This document shows positions 27,787 to 27,891 of a DNA stretch of 64,000 nucleotides, one piece after another. The DNA is from Lachnospiraceae bacterium (GTDB lineage Bacteria; Bacillota; Clostridia; Lachnospirales; Lachnospiraceae): positions 1 to 64,000 of the forward strand of contig JAGPFR010000006.1 in assembly GCA_018056425.1 (NCBI GenBank). The letters are read 5' to 3'. The first letter of the stretch is position 1, and every line of letters begins with the position of its first letter. The notes beneath the pieces were generated by a model. That model was not told where the DNA came from. It did not search any database and worked only from the letters and a program-made list of their open reading frames with translations. A program made the translations under genes and the position numbers.

Positions 27787-27891
27787 ATGAATCTGCACAG
27801 ACGATGGCGGCCCTACAGACGATGGCGTTGCCAGGATTCAGAAATTGCTTACTGTTTTCTTTTTTCCGAAGGAGTAGATTATGATCATTAA
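27787..27891 (+). CDS. Putative Trp/Arg-containing leader peptide overlapping trpD
   Basis: 34 codons, beginning MNLHRRWRPYRRWRC and ending VDYDH. GAAAGGAG lies 8 bases before the ATG, one of the best ribosome sites in the window. It contains two Trp codons in a duplicated in-frame block: the 13-mer ACAGACGATGGCG occurs at 27797 and 27815, giving RRWR twice. Its TAA (27889-27891) lies 11 bases inside trpD, so its translation runs over the trpD ribosome site and start. This resembles the Bacillus rtp (anti-TRAP) locus, where a T-box is followed by a Trp-codon leader peptide overlapping the regulated gene. Expression is not proven; only position, ribosome site and codon content support it. Confidence 0.6.
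   Translation: MNLHRRWRPYRRWRCQDSEIAYCFLFSEGVDYDH

Follow-up and report, generated by a model that had tools for sequence, protein, structure and literature searches.

A conserved tryptophan-codon leader ORF between a probable tryptophan T-box and the trpDCFBA operon in one clade of Lachnospiraceae

Introduction

In Trp T-boxes in general, binding of uncharged tRNA-Trp prevents formation of the terminator and allows read-through, and the classical trp attenuator is trpL of E. coli. The leader peptide rtpLP has about 10 codons with adjacent Trp codons, and the gene that it regulates encodes anti-TRAP; tandem sensing of tRNA-Trp charging is known from this locus, which acts indirectly, via anti-TRAP. 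The leader of Bacillus subtilis rtpA (yczA), reportedly described by Chen and Yanofsky in 2003 and 2004, is said to combine a Trp T-box with the rtpLP leader peptide. A further study reports Trp-codon leader peptides with double or triple UGG runs in the trp leaders of Corynebacterium and Streptomyces, and describes ileS T-boxes of Actinobacteria that act on translation, the T-box itself hiding the ribosome site (PMC1262725).

Here we describe a locus in a 64,000-nucleotide stretch of a Lachnospiraceae genome (GCA_018056425.1, contig JAGPFR010000006.1, positions 1 to 64,000; hereafter the window). Like B. subtilis rtpA, it has a Trp T-box with a terminator, followed by a leader open reading frame (ORF) that has its own ribosome site and Trp codons and lies beside the regulated gene, and it would share with the rtpA type the reading of tRNA-Trp charging by both transcription and translation. 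The likeness extends to a UGG specifier in the upstream T-box, to the position of the ORF after the terminator and to conservation of the Trp codons (two in six of seven orthologues, one in the seventh). A very short leader with adjacent Trp codons, and a target in an anti-TRAP/TRAP system, were not found. Unlike the leader reported for rtpA, the one described here has 34 codons, with two Trp codons six codons apart and rare Arg codons flanking them; it runs through trpD's own ribosome site and start, and its target would be trpDCFBA rather than anti-TRAP in a TRAP system. Like classical trp attenuators, the locus carries a short Trp-codon leader peptide ahead of trp genes, but whereas those switch a transcription terminator, the terminator here belongs to the upstream T-box, so that the trpL arrangement was not found. 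Like the actinobacterial ileS T-boxes, it ties a tRNA-sensing leader to a translation start, but with a separate ORF interposed. Judged by its sequence, the locus is a variant of the tandem T-box and leader-peptide kind, and this variant has so far been found in seven genomes of one genus, six of them with the full form. Among titles and abstract openings returned by literature searches, none named such a locus, and the combination of T-box, leader peptide and Lachnospiraceae was not found in the literature searched.

Results

The Leader ORF Follows a Probable Trp T-box

The gene order in the window was ackA, Trp T-box, 34-codon leader ORF and trpDCFBA (Table 1), with what we take to be pta upstream of ackA. 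TrpC (NF001377), TrpB (TIGR00263) and TrpA (TIGR00262) exceeded the NCBIfam cut-offs, and TrpF was assigned as the best match, below the cut-off. The candidate promoter was the sole sigma-70-like match (10/12) in positions 27400-27960, a region whose shuffled versions gave on average 0.9 such matches; it was also present in L035-L038, the four other alignment rows extending that far.

Table 1. Features of the leader region and operon in the window
Feature	Position	Strand	Details
Candidate promoter	27455..27483	+	-35 TTGACA 27455-27460; -10 TAAAGT 27478-27483; spacing 17
Trp T-box (likely)	27498..27732	+	RF00230, full model length; specifier TGG 27585-27587
T-box terminator hairpin	27721..27758	+	17-nt arms, 94% complementary, then T-rich tract
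Helix A, 5' strand	27759..27766	+	Predicted pairing with 27871-27878 (GGAG of trpD ribosome site)
Helix B, 5' strand (leader ribosome site)	27770..27785	+	Predicted pairing with 27853-27867, minimum fold
Leader Shine-Dalgarno	27771..27778	+	GAAAGGAG; 8 bases to ATG
Leader ORF	27787..27891	+	34 codons; peptide MNLHRRWRPYRRWRCQDSEIAYCFLFSEGVDYDH
Two copies of ACAGACGATGGCG	27797-27809, 27815-27827	+	Identical 13-mers, period 18, each coding RRWR
Helix B, 3' strand	27853..27867	+	Pyrimidine tract just upstream of trpD ribosome site
trpD Shine-Dalgarno	27868..27874	+	GAAGGAG, within leader ORF
trpD, anthranilate phosphoribosyltransferase	27881..28900	+	339 aa; TIGR01245, 390.6 bits
trpC, trpF, trpB, trpA	28890..32293	+	NCBIfam profile matches

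A preliminary description of this DNA, made by reading the sequence, had placed a Trp T-box upstream of the ORF. We recovered it as a match to RF00230 that reached 76.5 bits (E = 7e-17 in a short stretch) and so fell short of the gathering score, 93, and it was unlisted when the window was scanned with Rfam at the gathering threshold. Its T-box motif (27702-27715) contains UGGC, compatible with a G discriminator in tRNA-Trp, and the genome's own tRNA-Trp gene, read by inspection, has G at that place. By alignment, the T-box was present at all seven trpD orthologue loci. No second terminator-like site was found on the + strand of 27400-27960, that of the T-box, upstream of the ORF, being alone. 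We conclude that the element upstream of the leader is likely to be a tRNA-sensing switch, i.e., a Trp T-box.

There were four T-box matches in the window's genome (G000). One of 111.7 bits lay upstream of trpEG, on a separate contig from trpDCFBA; the TrpE encoded there scored 516.9 bits, marginally below the cut-off of 517.7. Another preceded a gene for a TrpB-like PLP enzyme (G000:C53, L074:2826-4534; NF009057/TIGR01415, above cut-off); its specifier was UGG by inspection, making it a third Trp T-box in the genome. A match of 85.6 bits lay on the minus strand of G000:C43 (L072:268-493), where the contig end cuts off the gene downstream. The genome also has a second trpD paralogue (G000:C18, L071:5558-6595; 60% identity) without neighboring trp genes. 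Elsewhere in the genus, several genomes have related trpD genes that also stand alone and lie directly 3' of a T-box motif.

TRAP (PF02081) was found in none of the five genomes searched out of the seven with the leader, the B. subtilis control being positive. Anti-TRAP (PF15777) gave only below-cut-off matches, in four of the five, inside ORFs of 394-395 codons, and E. coli gave a match too. With no TRAP in these five genomes, the device would act directly on the biosynthetic operon.

The 34-codon ORF of the preliminary description, with its strong ribosome site, was confirmed to the base, as were the duplicated 13-mer and the two Trp codons within it (TGG at 27805-27807, codon 7, and 27823-27825, codon 13). 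The ORF spans the trpD ribosome site and its stop ends 11 bases inside trpD, again as described; however, such an overlap is not special, because trpD/trpC and trpB/trpA overlap likewise within the operon, by 11 and 5 bases, respectively. The leader peptide has two Trp residues among 34 and TrpD none among 339. At the local TGG rate (67 per 18,775 codons in open frames of 250 or more), the probability of at least two Trp codons in 33 is about 0.006.

The leader repeat (27816-27829) is 79% identical to the 3' half of the T-box terminator (27745-27758), and at L037 a single base separates the terminator half CAGACGAGGGC from CAGACGATGGC; judging from these likenesses, the repeat may have descended from a duplicated terminator arm.

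The ORF Is Conserved in One Clade

Of 31 genomes of the genus, 27 had a trpD match; in seven, including the window, it was this trpD, with an identity of at least 78%. Completeness of 90% or higher combined with contamination of 5% or lower was reached by only 10 of these genomes, and absence from the others therefore says little. The seven leader-bearing trpD genes formed one clade with a support of 99 in a tree of 28 rows. The nearest row outside it, L041 (68%), sits on a long branch; there, trpD directly follows trpE and trpG, and no leader is present.

Checking for conservation in close relatives, as the preliminary description had proposed, we found that the ORF and its Trp codons were kept in six of the seven orthologues, the ORF staying open into the trpD start in these six. 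Their peptides begin MNLHRRWRPYRRWR, MNLYRRWRPYRRWR, MKLYRRWRPYRRWH, MNLYRRWRRYRRWR, MNLYRRWRLYRRWR and MEQHFVLSRRWRPYRRWH. In the same six loci, stops occurred in the leader frame in none, in the +1 frame in all and in the +2 frame in five, the exception being the window; conservation with such frame-specific stops is stronger evidence than the probability calculated from the number of Trp codons. The peptide core RRWRxYRRW was invariant save for x, codons 3, 8 and 10 differed synonymously at the third base, and residues beyond 14 varied freely. The leader stop fell at +4 to +11 of trpD in all six, despite differing frames relative to trpD, and the distance from the start to the Trp codons was longer by 12 bases in L040 and by 21 in L039, both multiples of three.

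The seventh orthologue, L039 (genome G227), has a 19-codon leader, MYRNLDYKLLYKLWRPYRM, with one Trp codon and a stop 90 bases before trpD. Three Arg are left and the sequence Trp-Arg-Pro-Tyr-Arg is kept, but the repeat is lost and there is no overlap with trpD. Because L040, the most diverged of the six full leaders, is also the deepest branch of the clade, the full-length leader is likely to be ancestral, with the L039 form being shortened.

The orthologues are few and related, so that the seven loci are not independent tests. As far as these alignments allow, we conclude that the leader ORF is under selection, for Trp and for rare Arg codons, and that it is very probably translated.

Rare Arg Codons Flank the Trp Codons

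The codon core in the six species was AGA CGA TGG CGR NNN TAY AGA CGA TGG, and in the window each leader Trp codon has CGA before it and CGG or CGT after it. CGA preceded both Trp codons in all six long leaders (12/12 cases), although this codon is uncommon both in the trp genes of the six genomes (7 of 360 Arg codons) and in the window's open frames of at least 250 codons (16 of 698). At the four AGA/CGA positions of the leader, the Arg codon was constant across all six species; among 42 Arg columns conserved in the trp genes of the same genomes one codon was kept in 12, CGA being the codon in none of those. This difference in constancy argues that the codons themselves are held, and not the amino acids alone. 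No tRNA-Arg(ACG) was seen in the tRNA matches of G000 (30/33) and G200 (30/37), sets from which some tRNAs may be missing. Our preferred reading of the rare Arg codons is slow decoding beside Trp, the rival reading being an RNA element. The preliminary description had raised the doubt that stalling might involve the Arg codons, and this was well placed, those beside Trp being both rare and conserved.

The Leader Seems Confined to the Clade

A profile built from the six peptides gave one strong match among 397 genomes of the family, the window itself (E = 1.4e-21). This sample held only two genomes of the genus (G000 and G116), so that the remaining orthologues could not show up. At 29 other loci matched by the profile there was no trp gene recognizable by tblastn; 14 of these were read and rejected as further leaders, each overlapping a frame of more than 90 codons. 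A degenerate DNA pattern matched at least 119 stretches of the genome contigs, of which three, among the matches listed, adjoin trpD: L114, which has the same identities as G220, and L197 and L210, whose trpD identities of 97.3% and 96.5% match G213 and G214.

We also surveyed 89 trpE loci (30 + 59) among the matches listed. A regular expression allowing any specifier found a T-box motif at 58 of them, and none had a leader-like ORF, defined by two Trp codons and its own ribosome site, ahead of trpE. A T-box motif was near 10 of 48 other trpD loci, and the seven of those 10 that were read likewise showed no ORF of this description. A frame with HRWRAYFR at L043 was rejected: it has one Trp codon and no ribosome site, and no counterpart in its near relative L042. 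A search of a phage collection gave no match. Within what was searched, these sequences suggest that the leader is confined to one clade of one genus.

Predicted Pairing of the Leader and trpD Ribosome Sites

Both the minimum free energy (MFE) and the centroid structure contained helix A, in which the tract 3' of the terminator pairs with GGAGUAGA of the trpD site. For the six loci with a long leader, helix B had a predicted energy of -19.0 to -23.3 kcal/mol. When its 3' arm was shuffled, the real duplex was reached by 8 of 1000 shuffles for the window and by 0 of 1000 for each of the other five long-leader loci, but by 496 of 1000 for L039; the potential for the leader site to pair with the trpD tract was therefore present in six of the seven loci, L039 being without it. 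Both arms are of quite different letters in L040, which gave -23.3 kcal/mol with its own partner compared with -12.1 to -19.3 with those of other long-leader loci, while the arms of the remaining five show no such preference within their group. This pairing, and the conserved rare Arg codons beside Trp, go beyond what the preliminary description had noticed. Region fold z-scores ranged across loci from -1.05 (L039) to -3.62 (L037), and two stretches taken from the window gave -1.50 and -1.83, so that the overall fold is just moderately unusual.

In free RNA, opening the trpD ribosome site was predicted to cost 3.9 to 11.6 kcal/mol, and 73 background starts had a median of 9.0; by these models, the site is not unusually closed. 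With a ribosome modeled at one Trp codon, the change in this cost was small at the six full-length loci (-0.4 to +1.3 kcal/mol). When the leader start was covered too, the modeled cost fell by 0.6 to 3.9 in five of the six and rose by 0.5 in L040, while the unpaired probability of the trpD Shine-Dalgarno pointed the opposite way, dropping in all six. The idea that the trpD site is locked and that stalling unlocks it was therefore unsupported by the folding models for the full-length loci. The preliminary description had proposed a two-level Trp sensor: a selected leader ORF after a Trp T-box on a biosynthetic operon bears this out in part, but the small effect of a stalled ribosome on the fold does not.

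At L039, the trpD site was predicted to pair with the leader tail directly after the Trp codon, and a ribosome stalled at that single codon lowered the modeled opening cost from 9.7 to 5.4 kcal/mol. At this locus, the codons after Trp hold CCUUAUCGA, a perfect complement of UCGAUAAGG in the ribosome site of trpD. As modeled, the L039 leader looks like a rewired, classical translational attenuator.

Discussion

Our best reading of the conserved leader ORF is a translational attenuator, acting as a second Trp sensor after the T-box, although we hold this tentatively and would put its probability somewhat below one half. The reading draws on conservation of the ORF, its Trp and rare Arg codons, the pairing potential, the gene order, the release modeled at L039, the contrast between a Trp-containing leader and a Trp-free TrpD, and the finding of no TRAP in the five genomes searched. 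According to this model, uncharged tRNA-Trp would pair with the UGG specifier, the terminator would not form and RNA polymerase would continue, after which ribosomes would load at the strong leader site. With Trp-tRNA plentiful, leader ribosomes would traverse the trpD ribosome site and end on the trpD start codon, excluding free ribosomes. With Trp-tRNA scarce, they would halt at codon 7 or 13, which lie 76 or 58 bases upstream of where trpD begins, with the rare Arg codons on either side of each Trp adding to the delay, and the halted traffic would leave trpD uncovered. In addition, any ribosome waiting at the start of the leader would prevent the leader ribosome site and the tract next to the trpD site from pairing. 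Both the stalling and the sign of its effect are what we infer, the sign being taken from L039, pathway logic and the reported rtpA precedent rather than from the fold of the main group. Against the attenuator stand the small modeled effect of a stalled ribosome at the full-length loci, the ordinary opening cost of the trpD site, the finding of no Trp-rich leader behind the other trp-operon T-boxes surveyed in the family, and L039, with its single Trp codon and neither an overlap nor pairing of the leader site.

The chief rival of the attenuator is positive translational coupling, in which the leader would be the operon's first ORF, and ribosomes that complete it would unfold the paired region at the trpD site and reinitiate there, so that leader translation would be needed for trpD and the Trp codons would have no more than a tuning role. 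Stop/start overlaps are common in the operon and would fit plain coupling too, those of the leader (4-11 bases in 6/6) being like trpD/trpC (11) and trpB/trpA (5); helix B, moreover, spans the leader and hides its ribosome site, and a ribosome would cross its 3' strand before reaching the stop. However, a shortage of Trp would open the T-box, yet stalled leader ribosomes would then lower trpD expression, which we argue is poor design for a biosynthetic operon, and coupling leaves unexplained both the two conserved Trp codons with rare-codon flanks and the want of overlap at L039. We consider it unlikely, although it is the rival to be taken most seriously. It is less probable still that RRWRPYRRWR as a nascent chain, or AGA-CGA-TGG-CGR as a run of rare codons, slows ribosomes regardless of Trp (or via Arg-tRNA), so that Trp would be no sensor. 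Such pausing would suit the six Arg within the first 14 residues of the window leader, the rare and conserved CGA and CGG codons, and the four AGA/CGA positions that have not drifted in six species, as against one codon kept in 12 of 42 Arg columns in trp genes, but the upstream T-box senses Trp, neither Trp codon varies among the six, and L039 retains Trp-Arg-Pro-Tyr-Arg with three Arg.

The conserved letters might alternatively serve the RNA, with the peptide as a by-product: AGACGATGGC, constant in 12/12 copies from six species, is similar to the T-box terminator's 3' half (79% identity) and could pair with the 5' half, to which the second copy is 86% complementary. We judge this improbable, in that the leader frame alone stays open in 6/6, L039 retains part of the peptide core and not the repeat, the terminator's own pairing is stronger (17 nt, 94%), and the minimum folds 3' of the terminator, compared by eye, share no structure for the repeats. 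An action of the peptide in trans after synthesis appears more improbable than any of these. There is a precedent in another Trp leader peptide, peTrpL of Sinorhizobium meliloti, reported to act in this way (PMC7298713), and the amino acids of codons 5 to 13 are conserved; yet residues after 14 vary freely, and the profile's lone strong match in the 397 family genomes (two of this genus) was the window.

Returning to the translational attenuator, a fuller picture, which we advance with more doubt than the attenuator itself, would be of two Trp sensors in series on one transcript, the T-box opening transcription and the leader peptide opening translation. The Trp codons would sit between deliberately slow Arg codons (AGA CGA TGG CGR), and the leader ribosome site would serve as lock partner to that of trpD. 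The arrangement would have arisen in a clade with trpDCFBA under its own T-box, apart from trpEG, and would have been rewired in one species, with the Trp codon beside an anti-ribosome-site strand. If this is true, the same layering as in the rtpA system would have evolved as a stand-alone device directly on biosynthetic genes, with no TRAP detected. The full leader, the shortened leader and the leaderless sister branch would then provide a natural series for testing a translational brake behind a T-box.
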